This document shows positions 4,083 through 31,043 of a stretch of DNA of 64,000 nucleotides, in pieces (within the stretch, counting starts at the first letter, position 1; every line of letters starts with the position of its first letter). The notes under the pieces were generated by a model. The model made no database searches. It was not told where the DNA came from and saw only the letters and a list, made by a program, of their open reading frames with translations. This DNA comes from Microbacterium sp. lyk4-40-TSB-66 (GTDB taxonomy: Bacteria > Actinomycetota > Actinomycetes > Actinomycetales > Microbacteriaceae): assembly GCF_030209475.1 (NCBI RefSeq), contig NZ_JARVRW010000003.1:248001-312000 (forward strand). Direction: 5' to 3'. Made by a program: the position numbers and the translations under genes.

Positions 4083-5021
4083 GCCGCGGGCGACCGCCAC
4101 CTCGCGTGGCAGCAGGGAGCCGAGCCAGCGGGCGATCTCACGCGGTCCCGAACGCGGAGCGGATGCCTCGACGTCGGGGTTGTAGTTGGTGTTGGTGTTG
4201 ACGTCGTAGGTCACGGTGCGACCGTCGATCGTCTCGATGAACTCGATGCCGGCGATACCCACGCCCTCGGCCGCGAGGAAGGCGAGGTAACGGTCGATGA
4301 GCGCCGGGTCGACGTCGTCGCGCAGCCGGAACATCGGCTCGGGCTCGACCCCGTCGGCATCCGGGATCGCGCAGGCCTCCGCGGGGCAGAGCTCGAAGCT
4401 TCCGGCGCTGGTGTCGACGCGCACGGCGTACACGAATTCGCCCGCGACGAACTCGGCCCGGGTGATGAACGCACCACGACCGACGAGAAGCTCCTGCAGA
4501 AGGGTGATGCCGTCGGGCGACGGTTCGAAGTCAGGACCGGTGACCCAGGCCGAGAAGTCGTCGACCGAGTCCCACCGGCGCACGCCCAGACCCTTGCCAC
4601 CCTGGTTGTGCTTGCTGATGAACGGCGCGCCGAAGCGCTCGGCCGATGCCACGAGATCGTCGGAGCCGAAGACGGCGAGTGTGCGGGGGACCTCGACGCC
4701 CGCGTGCCGCAGCGCCGCATGCTGCGCGACCTTGCTCACCTCGAGCTCGAGCACGTCGGCGCCGTTGATGACGGTGCGACCCCACGAGGCGAGCCAGCGC
4801 AGCACAGCGCGGCCGAACTCCTTGCTGTGCGCATGGTCACGCGTATGCGCGGAGGCGCTCAGACGCGACCAGAAGACACCGTCGGGCGGTTCGACCGCGA
4901 GATCGATGGATCCGTCGGTGAGCAGCCACTCTTCGAACGGCACCCCTTCGGCATCGAACGCCGCCGCGAACGGCGGAATCCACTGGGGGTTCTCGTGGAT
5001 GACGTAGACCTTGCCCGACAT
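4080..5021 (-). CDS. ATP-grasp domain protein (RimK-like ligase)
   Basis: 313 residues. The ATP-grasp core is visible: SKHNQGGKGLG near residues 136-146 is the glycine-rich nucleotide loop with its Lys, and GIEFIE plus DVNTNTNYNP near 255-285 supplies the Mg-binding acidic and Asn residues. The family joins a carboxylate to an amine or thiol through an acyl-phosphate, as in RimK-type glutamate ligases. Substrate is unknown. The predicted mRNA is leaderless: -10 TAGCCT is 6 nt before ATG 5021, and TGTCGG sits 10 nt before that -10, as in PafBC-type promoters. It has no operon partner. Confidence 0.8.
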   Translation of the reverse strand: MSGKVYVIHENPQWIPPFAAAFDAEGVPFEEWLLTDGSIDLAVEPPDGVFWSRLSASAHTRDHAHSKEFGRAVLRWLASWGRTVINGADVLELEVSKVAQHAALRHAGVEVPRTLAVFGSDDLVASAERFGAPFISKHNQGGKGLGVRRWDSVDDFSAWVTGPDFEPSPDGITLLQELLVGRGAFITRAEFVAGEFVYAVRVDTSAGSFELCPAEACAIPDADGVEPEPMFRLRDDVDPALIDRYLAFLAAEGVGIAGIEFIETIDGRTVTYDVNTNTNYNPDVEASAPRSGPREIARWLGSLLPREVAVARG

Positions 5022-5027
5022 TCCGCC

Positions 5028-5049
5028 AGGCTAACGCGCCCCTCCGACA
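5028..5049 (-). promoter_or_regulatory. RecA-NDp/PafBC-like promoter of the ATP-grasp gene
   Basis: On the minus strand TGTCGG (5049-5044), 10 nt, then TAGCCT (5033-5028), followed after 6 nt by the ATG at 5021. The order and spacing match the mycobacterial RecA-NDp promoter class. Confidence 0.65.
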
Positions 5050-7954: not shown

Positions 7955-8479
7955 CTACACGTCGGCGTCGGCCAGCACCGATCGCAGCGGCGGGACGTTG
8001 ACCTCGTGCAGGTCGACGTCGTCGAGGCGCTCGATGCTCTGCACGCGCGGGGCGATCACACGGTCGTCGGCGACGATCCAGCTGCCGACGAGGAGGAAAC
8101 GGTCGTTGCCGGCCGTGATCGGGCCGGTGAGGGCGAAGGTCTGGTGCGTCGGCGTGAGAAACGTCACGCGCACGGGCGTGCCGTGGGGCAGGGTCGACGG
8201 GTCGACCACATCGGCCTCGAGCGCCGGCTGCGGAGGCTCGATCCCGAGGTCGATGCGCTGGATCTCGGAGCTCGTCGCGAGGATCACGTCGCCGACCAGG
8301 GGCTGGCCGCCCACGCCGATGCGGACGGTGCCCTCGAGGGCGTAGAGGCCGTAGCGCGGCGAACGGACGATGACGCGGGCGACGTCGCCCGCCTTGACCT
8401 CGGCGAGCGCCTCGCGGATGCGCGCGACGTCGCGACGGGCACGGGCTGTCGAGAAGATGTCGAGCGCGTTTTCGTCCAT
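7955..8479 (-). CDS. Hypothetical protein with a DNA-damage-type promoter
   Basis: 174 residues; no family recognised. It is acidic, soluble and without a signal peptide or membrane segment. The N-terminal 45 residues look helical (MDENALDIFSTARARR...), followed by alternating beta-type segments (VGDVILATSSEIQRIDLG, FALTGPITAGNDRFLLVGSW) that suggest a small beta-barrel fold. The frame extends further upstream, but ATG 8479 is chosen because -10 TACGCT lies 6 nt before it, giving a leaderless mRNA. TGTCGG at the PafBC spacing precedes the -10. Neighbours give no functional clue. Confidence 0.7.
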   Translation of the reverse strand: MDENALDIFSTARARRDVARIREALAEVKAGDVARVIVRSPRYGLYALEGTVRIGVGGQPLVGDVILATSSEIQRIDLGIEPPQPALEADVVDPSTLPHGTPVRVTFLTPTHQTFALTGPITAGNDRFLLVGSWIVADDRVIAPRVQSIERLDDVDLHEVNVPPLRSVLADADV

Positions 8480-8485
8480 ATGTTC

Positions 8486-8507
8486 AGCGTAACGAGGGCC
8501 TCCGACA
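8486..8507 (-). promoter_or_regulatory. RecA-NDp/PafBC-like promoter of the hypothetical gene at 8.5 kb
   Basis: Minus strand TGTCGG (8507-8502), 10 nt, TACGCT (8491-8486), then 6 nt to ATG 8479. The upstream sequence GGGCCCGATGTCGGAGG is identical to that of the ATP-grasp promoter. Confidence 0.68.
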
Positions 8508-18169: not shown

Positions 18170-18493
18170 ATGACTGCCAAGGCGACGACCTCTGCCACGT
18201 TCGAGCAGGACGTCCTGCAGGCCGACGGACCCGTGCTCGTGGACTTCTGGGCCGAGTGGTGCGGACCGTGTCGCATGGTCGCGCCCGTCCTCGATGAGAT
18301 CCAGAACGAGAACGCGGGCAAGATCACGGTCCTCAAGCTCAACGTCGACGAGAACCCCGACCTCGCGATGAAGTACCAGATCACCTCGATCCCCGCCATG
18401 AAGGTGTTCCAGGGCGGCGAGGTCAAGACCACGATCATCGGCGCGAAGCCAAAGTTCGCGCTGGAGCAGGATCTCGCTCCGTTCCTCGGCTGA
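18170..18493 (+). CDS. trxA: Thioredoxin
   Basis: 107 residues, the standard length. The active site is WCGPC (Cys31 and Cys34), with the cis-Pro in SIPAM. It reduces protein disulfides in the cytoplasm and is itself recycled by TrxB, encoded just upstream. AAGGAG precedes ATG 18170. A strong terminator follows. Confidence 0.96.
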   Translation: MTAKATTSATFEQDVLQADGPVLVDFWAEWCGPCRMVAPVLDEIQNENAGKITVLKLNVDENPDLAMKYQITSIPAMKVFQGGEVKTTIIGAKPKFALEQDLAPFLG

Positions 18494-18700: not shown

Positions 18701-19048
18701 TCAGGACGCGTCGAGCCGCACGCTGGCGTCCCAGCGGCGGTGCGGCTCTTCGTCGCCCAGAATGCGCCACACAGCGCGTGTGAGGGGCGGGTAGTCGAGG
18801 GAGATCTGCCGTAGCACGCGGTAGTTGCGCGACCGGTTGGGGCGCTGGCCCCCGTTCTCGGCGATGTTCTCGGCGCGCAGAGTGAGTACCACGAGCTCGT
18901 CGACACTCGGCAGGTCTTCCATGAAGTCCCAGGGGTCTTCGCCACCGCGCAGACGCTCGTGGATGAGCACGGCCAGCTCGTCGGACGCCTCCGCGCGCAG
19001 CAGCTCGAGGCTGGCGCGGCGGCGCAGGGTGTCGTCGTTCGCTGTCAC
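18701..19048 (-). CDS. Hypothetical protein with a DNA-damage-type promoter
   Basis: 115 residues; no family recognised. It is acidic and predicted largely helical, without membrane segments: LELLRAEASDELAVLIHERL, then DPWDFMEDLPSVDELVVLTLRAENI. The upstream -10 TACGCT is 6 nt before GTG 19048, so a leaderless start there is favoured over ATG 19051. TGTCGG precedes the -10 at the PafBC spacing. It is transcribed away from trxA and lies just downstream of parB, but has its own promoter. Confidence 0.7.
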   Translation of the reverse strand: MTANDDTLRRRASLELLRAEASDELAVLIHERLRGGEDPWDFMEDLPSVDELVVLTLRAENIAENGGQRPNRSRNYRVLRQISLDYPPLTRAVWRILGDEEPHRRWDASVRLDAS

Positions 19049-19054
19049 CATTCC

Positions 19055-19076
19055 AGCGTACGTCGGGCCGCCGACA
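19055..19076 (-). promoter_or_regulatory. RecA-NDp/PafBC-like promoter of the hypothetical gene at 19.0 kb
   Basis: Minus strand TGTCGG (19076-19071), 10 nt, TACGCT (19060-19055), then 6 nt to GTG 19048. Confidence 0.65.
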
Positions 19077-19130: not shown

Positions 19131-20105
19131 TCAGCCGGTGTAGCCGTCTTCTCCCAGGGTCGACAGGATGCGATTGAGATCCTGAATCGAGGCGAAATCA
19201 ATGCTGATCTGGCCTTTTTTTGCACTGAGAGACACGCGGACCTTCGTGTCGAACCGATCTCCGAGTCGATCGGCGATCTGGTCGAGGCCCGCTTGACGAG
19301 CACCGGACCTCGGCTTCTGGCGAACGGGCACCACCCCGGGCATCTTCGCCGCCGCCTCGGCGGCGCGCACCGACAGATCTTCGTTCACGATCTTGTCCGC
19401 GAGCTTCTGCATCTCACGGGGGTCGTCGAGCGACAGAATGGCGCGAGCGTGACCCGCGCTCAAGACACCGGCGGCAACGCGCTGCTGCACCGGCACTGGC
19501 AGCTTCAAAAGACGGATGGTGTTGCTGATCTGGGGACGCGAGCGTCCGATCCGCGTCGCCAGTTCCTCCTGCGTGATGCCGAAGTCCTCGAGGAGCTGTT
19601 GATACGCGGAAGCCTCTTCGAGAGGGTTGAGCTGAGACCGGTGCAGGTTCTCGAGGAGTGCGTCACGAAGGAGGTACTCGTCTTCGGTCTCCCGGACGAC
19701 CGCGGGAATCGTGGCGAGGCCGGCTTCGCGAGCCGCGCGCGTGCGACGCTCGCCCATGATGAGCTCATACGTCCCGTCGCCCTTGTCGCGAACGACCACG
19801 GGTTGGAGCACGCCGAACTCACGGACGGAGTGCACCAGCTCGGCAAGGTCGTCAGAATCGAAGTGCGTGCGCGGCTGACGCGGATTGGGCACGATCGCTG
19901 CGGGGTCGACATGCACGAGGCGTGCGCCCGGGACGGAGACGAGCTGAGCGTCAGCGTCTGGTGCGGCGTCGGCGGTCGCCGACGCCTTCTCCTTCTCGGA
20001 TGCCGACGCACCCGGGAAGAACACGTCGACGGGGCGCGCCTCCGACGGTTCGGCGGTGGGGATCAGCGCACCGATACCACGACCCAGTCCGGTCCTCTTA
20101 GCCAT
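19131..20105 (-). CDS. parB: Chromosome-partitioning protein ParB
   Basis: 324 residues. It starts with RTGLGRGIGALIP, the N-terminal segment that contacts ParA. The CTPase domain carries GERRTRAAREAG, ENLHRSQLNPLEEA follows, and a helix-turn-helix (ITQEELATRIGRSRPQISN) reads parS. The C-terminal segment should dimerise. ParB loads at parS, slides as a CTP clamp and organises the origin for segregation. ATG 20105 overlaps the parA stop (TGATG). Seven parS-like sites lie within 4 kb. Confidence 0.95.
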   Translation of the reverse strand: MAKRTGLGRGIGALIPTAEPSEARPVDVFFPGASASEKEKASATADAAPDADAQLVSVPGARLVHVDPAAIVPNPRQPRTHFDSDDLAELVHSVREFGVLQPVVVRDKGDGTYELIMGERRTRAAREAGLATIPAVVRETEDEYLLRDALLENLHRSQLNPLEEASAYQQLLEDFGITQEELATRIGRSRPQISNTIRLLKLPVPVQQRVAAGVLSAGHARAILSLDDPREMQKLADKIVNEDLSVRAAEAAAKMPGVVPVRQKPRSGARQAGLDQIADRLGDRFDTKVRVSLSAKKGQISIDFASIQDLNRILSTLGEDGYTG

Positions 20106-21031
20106 CAGGAATCCTTTTCGGTGGTGTCGCGAGCGACGATTTCGACAGCGGCTTCGCGGTAGGCGATGGCGCCCGCCGACTGGCCATCGTAGGCGATGAC
20201 CGTCTGCCCGAAGCTCGGCGCTTCAGAGACACGGACGGAGCGGGGGATGACGGTGTTCAGCACCTCGTGGGAGAAATGCGAGCGAACCTCTTCAGCCACC
20301 TGCTGCGCAAGCCGCGTGCGACCGTCGTACATCGTCAGCAGAATGGTCGAGACATGAAGCTTCGGGTTGAGGTGCTTCTGAATCATCTGCACGCTGCCGA
20401 GCAACTGGCTGAGCCCCTCGAGCGCGTAATACTCGCACTGGATGGGAATCATGACTTCATCGGCAGCCGTGAAGGCGTTGATCGTGAGAAGACCGAGCGA
20501 CGGCGGGCAGTCGATGATCACGAAGTCCAGGTGGTTGTCTTCGATCTCCAGGTATTCACGGAGGGCGCCCCGTAGGCGGTGCTCACGGGCCACCTGAGAG
20601 ACGAGTTCGATTTCGGCGCCGGCGAGATGGATCGTACTGGGTGCGCACAGCAGCGCGGGGGACTCAGGGCTCGTCTGGATGATGTCGACAAGCGGAACGT
20701 CGTTGATGAGAACGTCATAGACGCTCGGCGTCTCGGCGTTGTGAGCCACACCGAGGGCGGTGGAGGCATTGCCCTGGGGGTCGAGGTCGATGACCAGGAC
20801 GCGCGCGCCCACCGATACCAGAGCGGCCGCCATGTTGACCGCGGTCGTCGTCTTGCCGACTCCACCTTTCTGGTTCGACACCGTGAACACGCGGGTACGA
20901 CCAGAGAGTTTGACGTCCTTAACTTCGAGCGCACGCCGTCGCGCGGACAGATCGGCAATCTCACGAGCGATCGGGGAGTCGTCGAGCGAGAAGGACGAAG
21001 ATGCCTCACCGGATTGTTTCACGTGAAACAC
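20105..21031 (-). CDS. parA: Chromosome-partitioning ATPase ParA (Soj)
   Basis: 308 residues. The deviant Walker A motif KGGVGKTT (about 54-61), Walker A' DLDPQGN and Walker B FVIIDCPPS define a ParA/MinD ATPase. It forms a DNA-bound gradient that moves ParB-parS complexes. The start codon GTG 21031 and codons 2-5 (FHVK) lie inside a perfect parS site, with AAAGGTGAG just upstream. ParB bound there would cover the translation start region, suggesting autoregulation. Its -10 TAGACT is preceded by TGTCAG at the PafBC spacing. Confidence 0.95.
   Translation of the reverse strand: MFHVKQSGEASSSFSLDDSPIAREIADLSARRRALEVKDVKLSGRTRVFTVSNQKGGVGKTTTAVNMAAALVSVGARVLVIDLDPQGNASTALGVAHNAETPSVYDVLINDVPLVDIIQTSPESPALLCAPSTIHLAGAEIELVSQVAREHRLRGALREYLEIEDNHLDFVIIDCPPSLGLLTINAFTAADEVMIPIQCEYYALEGLSQLLGSVQMIQKHLNPKLHVSTILLTMYDGRTRLAQQVAEEVRSHFSHEVLNTVIPRSVRVSEAPSFGQTVIAYDGQSAGAIAYREAAVEIVARDTTEKDS
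21015..21030. promoter_or_regulatory. parS site 1, perfect, inside the parA start
   Basis: TGTTTCACGTGAAACA, a perfect 16-bp palindrome equal to the bacterial parS consensus. It encodes most of the first codons of parA. Confidence 0.95.
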
Positions 21032-21055
21032 CTCTCACCTTTGGCGGACGTGCCC

Positions 21056-21077
21056 AGTCTACCCGTGCCGTCTGACA
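21056..21077 (-). promoter_or_regulatory. RecA-NDp/PafBC-like promoter of parAB
   Basis: Minus strand TGTCAG (21077-21072), 10 nt, TAGACT (21061-21056). Here the mRNA has a short leader with a ribosome site before GTG 21031. Confidence 0.6.
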
Positions 21078-21356
21078 TCGCTTGCGGCGGTCCGGCCTGC
21101 GCACGGACGGATGCTGAGCTCATGGAAATCGTGCCATGTCGTGGGTCAGTTCAGCAGAGGCGCAGTACTCGCGGATGCGGTAGGGATGTACAGAGATGGC
21201 GAATGGGTGGGCGCCGAGCTCAGTTCGGTTCGGGCGAGATGATCCTGTCGGCGCTGAGATCGAGTGTCAGTCCGCGCAACACCTGTCTAACCGGACAGGG
21301 GTTGCTTATCGGCCGCTTCACGTTCTGGGCGCATCGCCACCTCGACTGCCGCGCGC

Positions 21357-21372
21357 CGTTTCACGTGAAACA
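21357..21372. promoter_or_regulatory. parS site 2, one mismatch
   Basis: CGTTTCACGTGAAACA differs from the consensus only in the first base. Confidence 0.9.
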
Positions 21373-21856
21373 TTGCCGGCGCGCGCGAGCCTTGACCTTG
21401 GCTCGGTCACCTTCATCCGGAAGCTCGCGTGAGGCCCGCTTCGACAGATTGACGGCGCTTTGCCAGAGTGTGGGCACATCGCCCCACGGCAACTTTGGGT
21501 CCCCATGACCACCAACGACCGCCTCTCATCCGACGCGGGATAGTCCCGGGATCCGCTGAACCACCGGCAAGTTGATGAGGCTCTCTACCCCGTCGTCCTA
21601 CCCATTGCGGCCTCGCATCCTTGCCAGGAGCGGAGGTCCTGATTCGCTCCAGTTCATGTACGCCATTCAGGACGGCCGCCTGAACGCCGGAAGTCCTCAG
21701 GCGCAGACGTAAGCGCCCGCCCAGATGGCAACCATGTGGGTCCTGAAGATCGACGAGCAACAATGAGACGAGTTGTGTACACGAGCACGGTTGGGAGGCG
21801 GACCCGAGGAGCGGGACTTGAATTGCACTCACTCCCACTCACGGGAGACCTTGCGA

Positions 21857-21872
21857 TGTTTCACGTGAAACA
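21857..21872. promoter_or_regulatory. parS site 3, perfect
   Basis: TGTTTCACGTGAAACA, identical to site 1. Confidence 0.95.
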
Positions 21873-22111
21873 CTGCGGGCTCCGCGTCCCGAATGACGGG
21901 CCGAGAGGTCTCCTCGAGAGGGCGACTCCGCCGGGCATGCGGTGAGAACTGCCTCCGGCTGCGTAGGTCTCCTCAACGTCTGTAGCAACCGCTCCGCGGG
22001 CGGGCAACGCTGCCCCTCGGGAGTCGATACCGAGAGGACGGCTATCGACTGCCGCACGCTGTGCGGGTCCGGTATGAGGTGTCCGTACGCGCCGGGTGAG
22101 CGGACGGCGTC

Positions 22112-22127
22112 CGTTTCACGTGAAACA
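22112..22127. promoter_or_regulatory. parS site 4, one mismatch
   Basis: CGTTTCACGTGAAACA, the same variant as site 2. Confidence 0.9.
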
Positions 22128-22677
22128 CCGAACGCGCGGAATCTCGCACCTATCTAGTTCGATCGGGTGAGCACGGCTGGCCCGGATCAGACCCGGAGCA
22201 CCGCCCGGCCTCTCGGCCAGCGGAAGCATCGCGGTGTTCCGGGGCAAGCCCTGTCGCCGATGCGCGATCGTCCTGCGCGAGAGGCGACTTCCGCATTGGG
22301 GGTGATGCAGCGCAAACGGACGACGGCGCCGGCGTACATCTGCCACACCTCAGCCTCACTGACAATGACAGCGCCCAGCGTCATTTGCAGCCCGAGTGTC
22401 GATGGCGTCCACTAGCTGCGCGAAAGGGTCTGGGGCGCCTCACACCTTCCTCGAATGTGTCGATTCGGCCTGTGATGTGGTCAAGGATCACGACGGATCC
22501 TGCACACCCGCACCCCCGCTTCGAATCGCGAGCCACCCGTGCCATCCCGGATCCGCGCCATTAACCGCCAACGCAGATCGGGAAACCCGATCATCCGTCG
22601 AACTGACCGCGAGCGTCGTCCATCTTCGCGGAGATTGCCGCCGTAGCCCGCCGCCTCGTAGCGGCGCGGACGAGGCA

Positions 22678-22693
22678 TGTTTCACGTGAAACA
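22678..22693. promoter_or_regulatory. parS site 5, perfect
   Basis: TGTTTCACGTGAAACA, identical to site 1. Confidence 0.95.
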
Positions 22694-23497
22694 TGATCCG
22701 TTCATCTCCCGAAAGTGATCCATCGGGCCAGGCAGCTGCGCGAACCGACAGCGTGTACCCGATGACTAGATGCTAGAGCCGGCGACGACGTCGTCGCGAG
22801 TCGTCGCTCGAGGCGAGGATTGAGATGCGCCTCTTCGCGGACAGCCGTGAGCGAGCGCCTCGGAGACGCCCCCGAGGCAGGGGAGCGCCGTGGCGTCTCC
22901 GCTCGCGGAGTTAGCCGTCATGCACCCACCCTCAGGCAAGCCGAGTGTCGAGGTACAGCCCTACCTCTCAAAGGTCGGCTGCCATCGAGTAGCCCACTGC
23001 GAGGCCGGCTGATTGGCTGCAGGTTCTCCGTCCGCGTCGACATTCGGCGTATTCAACCCGTACTTTGCGCGCGCATCCCACGCGCCCGGCAGCGGCGGAG
23101 CACAATCGACCGCTAGCTGTTCGACTCGCATCCCCAGGTCCACTCATGCCCAACAGGACGAGATGGAAGTAGGCGCGACACCTCGGCGGATCGTATGGAG
23201 CAGCTTGCCCGGCGGGATCTGCACTCGCTCGCGCCTGCGCAACCGCGTCAGCAGCGGAGGACGCCATGTGAGACGCCGACACCCCACGGATCCCGAGGCG
23301 CGAGCTCAGTCGCACCTCGACATCGCGCCCCATCGCTTCGGTGACGCCCCTTTCGCCCGGCGCGAGCATGGGTGAATGCTTACACGCGACGGGAACGTTT
23401 AGGGAACCCTTCTGACTCACCGACCTAGGACAGTCCGTACCCCGCGACCTGACCGCGAACGGATCTGCGAGATCAGTCGACCCCGTCTCAGCGGCCA

Positions 23498-23513
23498 TGT
23501 TTCACGTTAAACG
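23498..23513. promoter_or_regulatory. parS-like site 6, degenerate
   Basis: TGTTTCACGTTAAACG has two mismatches, both in the right half. ParB binding would probably be weaker. Confidence 0.65.
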
Positions 23514-23554
23514 CTAGACCGACTAAAAATGCACGGCGATGGCCCCTCTGGGAC

Positions 23555-23700
23555 GCGCGGGCACTTCCGCATCGCATTCGCTGCCGTACGGGGTCGCTTC
23601 ATCCCGCGCCTCAGGTCCGGGATCCGAGCGCGGGCACTTCCGCATCGCAATAGCTGCCGTGCGGTGTCGCCTCGTCCCGGACCTCCGGTCCAGGATCCGA
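23555..23700. repeat. Two tandem copies of a 73-bp imperfect repeat
   Basis: Copies start at 23555 and 23628 and share GCGCGGGCACTTCCGCATCG at the start and GATCCGAG at the end, with scattered differences between. It lies between parS-like sites 6 and 7 and has no coding sense. Confidence 0.8.
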
Positions 23701-23860
23701 GCGGGGACCCCTTGTCACGGTGAACCACGGATAGAAACCACGCAGAGCGATTCCGCAAACCCAAGTGCCCCTCCGCCTCACCCTTGGTTATCAGGGCCGG
23801 CAGCGCGTGTCGACCAGTCCAGTACCGTCCCGATACAAGGACGTGCCGTACCCGGTCAGG

Positions 23861-23876
23861 CGTTCCACGTGAAACA
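23861..23876. promoter_or_regulatory. parS-like site 7, degenerate
   Basis: CGTTCCACGTGAAACA has two mismatches, both in the left half. Confidence 0.65.
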
Positions 23877-31021: not shown

Positions 31022-31043
31022 TGTCGGAGGGGGCGGGTAGTCT
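31022..31043 (+). promoter_or_regulatory. RecA-NDp/PafBC-like promoter of recF
   Basis: TGTCGG (31022-31027), 10 nt, TAGTCT (31038-31043), then 6 nt to GTG 31050. It lies in the short dnaN-recF gap. Confidence 0.7.

Follow-up and report, generated by a model that had tools for sequence, protein, structure and literature searches.

A small acidic protein family of Microbacteriaceae, its predicted leaderless promoter and a lineage-variable damage-type element

What might a small acidic protein of no recognised family do beside parB, and how far can its promoter and its position answer the question? The gene concerned encodes 115 residues and lies in the 64,000-nucleotide stretch of Microbacterium DNA analysed here (the window), directly behind a promoter of a type associated with DNA damage. 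The first-pass annotation, made from the sequence alone, took this dedicated promoter to suggest a stress or repair role, and considered that the proximity of parAB, said to have the same promoter type, may be meaningful.

The gene and the range of its family

The coding sequence, recognised from its ORF and its conservation, occupies positions 18701..19048 of the minus strand, from a GTG start codon at 19048-19046 to a stop codon that ends at 18701 and is included in these coordinates. The initial description of a 115-residue acidic protein without a recognised family holds in ORF, length, start and isoelectric point (pI 5.05), and the window protein has no match above cut-off in Pfam and no match in NCBIfam. 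Its small size and the lack of a known family could speak for a spurious ORF lying over an intergenic region; this is refuted by the codon-position signal and by family-wide conservation at different genomic places, and retains next to no probability. In a gap-free comparison of 21 relatives, differences at codon positions 1, 2 and 3 number 297, 194 and 1033, and the changed codons comprise 779 synonymous versus 405 nonsynonymous ones. Moreover, 28 columns, the start included, are invariant in an alignment of 56 members. Given the codon signal and the conservation of the family at different genomic places, the gene is real, coding and constrained.

A search of 98 genomes with the window protein gave a match in 57, which make up 57 of the 59 same-genus genomes if its own is counted (56 of 58 others); the two congeners lacking a match are 86% and 44% complete, and none of 39 genomes from other families of the order matched. 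With profiles, matches were obtained in at least 251 of 398 Microbacteriaceae genomes and at least 59 of 85 genera, the former being a lower bound because about 11 candidates were scored per genome, and conservation of the gene across Microbacteriaceae is thereby well supported. When wider profiles were applied to an order-level set (396 genomes) and a class-level set (394 genomes), strong matches were found in Microbacteriaceae alone. Outside it there are two partial matches in the order set (E 0.0087 and 0.0099) and two in the class set (E 0.0022 and 0.0035), all four of which we take as chance. As judged from these searches, the protein family is confined to Microbacteriaceae in the sampled genomes, with no convincing outside member. 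Horizontal transfer via phages or plasmids was also considered, and a single-sequence tblastn gave no match to either at E 0.01. These data document a family that is widespread in Microbacteriaceae and has no Pfam or NCBIfam entry.

The predicted leaderless promoter and its damage-type element

Upstream of the gene one reads, in order, TGTCGGCG, eight bases, the -10 box TACGCT (19055..19060, minus strand), the six bases GGAATG and then GTG, which agrees with the leaderless start 6 nt past the -10 described at first pass (TACGCT 19060-19055, GTG 19048). The -10 box is near-constant in Microbacterium relatives, and the RecA-NDp-like or PafBC -26 type element TGTCGGCGG (19068..19076, minus strand) is patchily conserved. 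The promoter fits tTGTCRgtg-N8-TAnnnT, the RecA-NDp consensus quoted in PMC5656591 for promoters resembling the LexA-independent recA P1; the corresponding PafBC-type layout (TGTCR element, 8 nt, TAnnnT) occurs in the window genome as TGTCGGCG-GCCCGACG-TACGCT. The promoter had been called RecA-NDp-like, and this assignment is supported both by the fit to the consensus and by the site pattern TGTCNG-N10-TANNNT, observed 6 times in the window against 0.24 expected from shuffles. The gene appears to be transcribed from its own leaderless SigA-type promoter.

The conservation of the -10 box was followed with a script that sought TANNNT and then an in-frame start 4-8 nt downstream. Exactly one such combination is present in each of 56 Microbacterium rows, L057, whose match begins at residue 43 at a contig end, being left out of these counts. 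Since the start lies 6 nt past the -10 in 54 of the 56 and 7 nt past it in two, the alternative in-frame ATG at 19049..19051 of the minus strand, which sits 3 nt after the -10 where the GTG at 19048 sits 6 nt after it, is judged not to be the start. Box position 5 is C in 56/56 rows and CG immediately precedes the box in 55/56, all rows having been preselected for TANNNT. The best 80 of 412 confirmed loci, which overlap in genomes with the 56-row set and carry the record names Microbacterium (77), Actinomycetota bacterium (2) and Microbacteriaceae bacterium (1), have the 6-nt spacing in 79 cases and CGTA in 77. Among 71 loci of other genera (eight same-genus loci and the chance match L179 left out), 33 are leaderless, at other genomic places, and 30 of these 33 have TA[CG][CG]CT; the leaderless arrangement is missing from the other 38. 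Based on this pattern, we infer that the housekeeping polymerase would transcribe the gene autonomously and without a leader, an arrangement near-constant in Microbacterium.

The extended box CGTASSCT is found in 53 of 55 family genes recovered by the script versus 1 of 29 other leaderless genes. The 115-aa gene shares CGTASSCTNGANNNRTG with other leaderless SigA-type promoters of the same genome, and differs from them in that CGTASSCT is near-constant only in its own family. Genome-wide, CGTASSCTNGANNNRTG occurs at 12 sites (L058-L069), that of the 115-aa gene included, versus 1 for the reversed pattern. These sites precede varied ORFs, one of them an HhH-GPD gene, presumably MutY-like; two open just 10-19 codons and probably do not belong to genes. 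TGTCGG lies upstream in 3 of the 12, and by eye no upstream element is common to all of them.

Concerning a possible activator, the genome encodes PafB-PafC: next to TatA and TatC lies a pair of adjoining WYL-WCX proteins, of which one carries the PafC HTH domain. The pattern TGTCRG-N10-TANNNT occurs 108 times genome-wide (56+52), versus 6 (3+3) for the reversed pattern. We sampled the genes downstream of the first sites in contig order (n=29), taking the longest ORF starting within 150 nt where no leaderless start was present, and leaving out L072, for which the script had picked the site of L071. Nine of the 29 are of repair, replication or nuclease type (UvrA, UvrB, RecQ, methyladenine glycosylase, NrdI, DnaX, a second clamp-loader type, RNase_T and RNase_H_2), 16 belong to other families (e.g. 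MFS, aldo-keto reductase, LuxS, seryl-tRNA synthetase), and four have no family at E 1e-5. A class in which 9/29 genes are of these types is broad, so that the site alone does not imply repair. Such breadth is to be expected from the M. smegmatis PafBC regulon, put at more than 150 genes, UvrABC included, in PMC8223512.

The likeness to the Mycobacterium PafBC (RecA-NDp) regulon extends to the promoter fit, to PafB and PafC encoded beside tatA-tatC, and to UvrA- and UvrB-type genes carrying the site. The differences are that the element of the 115-aa gene is patchy among relatives, being often reduced to GTC, and that the 115-aa family has no convincing member in sampled genomes outside Microbacteriaceae. 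Three further sites in the window deserve mention. A RecA-NDp-like site at 31022-31043 (plus strand) stands directly before a gene of RecF/SMC-N type whose GTG start is leaderless, and TGTCGGAGG sites with leaderless starts are present at 5028-5049 and 8486-8507 (both minus strand), where the genes behind them (4086-5024 and 7961-8482) have no Pfam family at E 1e-5.

At first pass it was stated that the reading would be refuted if the promoter motif were not conserved in relatives that keep the gene; for the damage element this is largely what is observed, as many of them lack it. TGTC[ACG]G is present in 15 of the 56 Microbacterium rows, GTC only in 8 and neither in 33; for the best 80 of 412 loci the corresponding numbers are 33, 21 and 26. 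Of the 33 leaderless loci of other genera, two, both from one genus and both reading TGTCGG (L111 and L112), have TGTC[ACG]G, and three more have GTC. At uvrA, taken as positive control in 30 loci (those of 59 genomes whose uvrA comes closest to that of the window), TGTC[CG]G at the same spacing is found in 30/30. The 115-aa gene of these same 30 genomes shows TGTC[ACG]G in 12, GTC only in 6 and neither in 11, with one dropped. The uvrA comparison offers an easy measure by which core members of the Microbacterium PafBC regulon can be distinguished from variable ones; our literature search, which brought up a paper on the regulation of Corynebacterium carotenoids, found no study separating the two in this genus. 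As a minor point, the uvrA promoters have TGTCGG in 23 loci (by script) and TGTCCG in 7 (L311, L313-L316, L318 and L319, from the printed rows), which may reflect an activator preference that differs between lineages.

The patchiness is nevertheless structured. On a ParA-ParB-TrxA-TrxB tree of the 80 rows, TGTC[ACG]G needs 11 changes, where shuffling gives a mean of 25.5 and 0 of 500 shuffles are as low, so that the element is clade-clustered yet must have been gained or lost many times. As background we used 29 further leaderless genes, which a script recovered from the window and the best 80 of 412 loci; TGTC[ACG]G is present in 3 of them and GTC in 5. This background is rough, because 9 of the 29 come from the window (these hold all three TGTC[ACG]G and four of the five GTC) and the rest are partly orthologues. 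With TGTC[ACG]G in 33/80 of the best 80 of 412 loci versus 3/29, and GTC at the right spacing in 54/80 versus 5/29, the element is not simply a general leaderless feature. From the counts at the gene, at uvrA, on the tree and in the background, it is neither random nor fixed, and it is genuine in this genome but lineage-variable among relatives. The step from promoter to stress or repair role accordingly survives in part: the site class with its 108 members and the encoded PafBC stand behind it, whereas the breadth of the class and the patchy element do not.

Two readings of the product bear directly on these counts. The protein could be a genuine Microbacteriaceae DNA-damage effector, induced by PafBC and acting on repair or chromosome segregation, its parAB neighbourhood being meaningful. 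The consensus-like site, the presence of PafBC, the repair genes in the class, the clade clustering and the occurrence of the element in another genus at another place (L111 and L112) would all agree with this, but the frequency of the element (33 of the best 80 of 412 loci; 2 of 33 leaderless loci elsewhere) compares poorly with 30/30 at uvrA, and we consider this reading unlikely. Alternatively, it could be a housekeeping, lineage-specific protein unrelated to damage, whose TGTC element would be just one instance of a large and varied promoter class and would reveal little about function. This would suit a promoter whose near-constant part is the -10 and the start spacing, a site class in which 20 of 29 sampled genes are not of repair, replication or nuclease types, and CGTASSCTNGANNNRTG sites that stand before varied ORFs and have TGTCGG in only 3 of 12 cases; it sits less well with the excess of TGTC[ACG]G over other leaderless genes, and we regard it as doubtful. 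The explanation that we favour, and to which we give an even chance of being right as a whole, is a lineage-restricted, acidic, predicted all-helical protein, probably an adaptor, for which a leaderless SigA-type promoter provides basal expression and to which PafBC input was added in some lineages. In this species and some relatives, the PafBC-type -26 element would be superimposed on the basal promoter as a variable input, and output there would probably rise when ssDNA activates PafBC; in the sigma adaptation set out in PMC11804915, PafB contacts a -26 motif, and ssDNA is the activating signal. The damage-type element is a variable addition, differing between lineages, to a leaderless promoter that is itself near-constant in Microbacterium.

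The parAB neighbourhood

The gene is preceded on the same strand by parB (19131..20105, minus strand) and faces a convergent thioredoxin gene downstream (18170..18493, plus strand); the names parA, parB, trxA, trxB and murJ are used here from reading the sequence and not from a family search. Upstream of parA, a RecA-NDp-like site was recognised by pattern match at 21056..21077 (minus strand) as TGTCAGAC-N8-TAGACT. The first-pass statement that parAB has the same promoter type is right as to this site; however, parA is not leaderless, since 24 bases separate the site from its GTG, and the element in its TGTCNG form is retained in just 16 of 79 loci (best 80 of 412, one being without parA). Seven parS-like sites are also present at window positions 21016-23875 (less than 3 kb), five of them perfect GTTTCACGTGAAAC and two with one mismatch, where shuffling predicts none; the first of them is placed right where the parA ORF begins.

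In the best 80 of 412 loci, the end of parB is less than 300 bases upstream of the gene in 56 and more than 1 kb away in 24. We compared this arrangement with wider loci, reaching 8 kb to each side of the gene, of which 20 come from other genera and whose neighbours were checked by tblastn (crude gene calling had flagged the family gene in 18 of 26 wider loci, and tblastn found it in all 20 of other genera). None of these 20 has parA, and parB is absent within 8 kb in 19; in the remaining one parB ends about 7.7 kb off, at the edge of the locus. A DUF7059-type methyltransferase gene is found within 8 kb in 6 of the 20, three of which also have trxA and murJ, including the locus with the distant parB. 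No parA, parB, trxA, murJ or methyltransferase gene was found in the other 14, and the neighbours met in other genera are unrelated (PrpD, CHAD, a DUF3516 helicase, SNF2). In a few other genera the gene therefore lies in the same origin-proximal cluster without adjoining parB, and adjacency to parB is a Microbacterium feature. In two Microbacterium-type loci (L219 and L234), the gene lies on the opposite strand and is flanked by a YCII-domain gene and by an ORF with a C-terminus that, in our estimation, looks like that of an ECF sigma factor.

These observations weaken the suggestion that the parAB neighbourhood is meaningful, as parB adjoins the gene in none of the 20 wider loci from other genera and as the element at parA is itself uncommon. 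Both points also count against a damage effector acting on segregation, to which the site at parA in this genome would otherwise lend support. A segregation role, in support of ParB or of the origin region, could be argued from the close parB in 56 of the best 80 of 412 loci, and from the six wider loci with the methyltransferase gene, including the three with trxA and murJ and the one with parB at some distance, but with 14 of 20 wider loci showing unrelated neighbours instead, we find it very improbable. Roles in repair and segregation are possible, and the conservation pattern supports neither.

Predicted structure and possible function

The helical character noted at first pass is borne out by two AlphaFold2 models, both all-helical (pLDDT 83.2 and 84.9; pTM 0.77 and 0.80), which agree on helices at about residues 2-34, 39-43, 49-64, 72-85 and 87-98 and on a low-confidence C-terminal helix. 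Foldseek searches of PDB and of viral models, with E up to 0.001, gave no match for either model, and the best VIA-align row (Z 4.2, rmsd 2.8 over 52 residues) falls in a class that is uninformative according to the notes of the tool. The profile searches and structure prediction proposed at first pass thus yield an all-helical model with no Foldseek match at this threshold and no family match above cut-off. Across members, only weak family matches were obtained with Pfam (56 members), PHROGs and NCBIfam (26 members) and PDB profiles, with best E values, reached in one or some members, of 0.0029 for Pfam, 0.0064 for NCBIfam and 0.056 for PHROGs.

Several candidate relatives were rejected. DUF433 matches weakly in 19 of 56 members (best E 0.0096) and DUF6771 in 15 of 56 (best E 0.0029), the window protein being far under the cut-off for the latter; the Trp repressor (E 0.74), the Tn3 resolvase (E 0.075) and gp41-5 (E 0.0049, without any stretch passing by itself) are likewise weak matches. 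Nothing significant is shared with solved structures or Pfam families, as the best sequence matches do not exceed chance or contain no stretch that passes.

Among 88 diverse members, R18, G36, P39, P87 and L89 are invariant, A21, E24, D38, P47, D50 and V53 are retained in 87, and pI is below 7 in all 88. Acidity, helicity, the lack of any match and the conserved residues lead us to propose, with low confidence, that the product is most likely a non-enzymatic adaptor binding a protein partner through its conserved parts, for which helix 1 with R18, A21 and E24, the GEDPW loop and the LPxVDE helix start would be the candidate interaction parts. An enzymatic role is also possible, because R18, E24, D38, D50 and E51 are near invariant. 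A more specific form of the adaptor proposal would make this small acidic protein a Microbacteriaceae damage effector that, once induced by PafBC, binds a core replication, segregation or transcription protein to pause the cell cycle, and that was recruited into the regulon more than once (in Microbacterium sub-clades and in the genus of L111 and L112); we consider this quite improbable. A loop near residues 63-71 measures 9, 16 or 22 residues in 80 of the 88 members.
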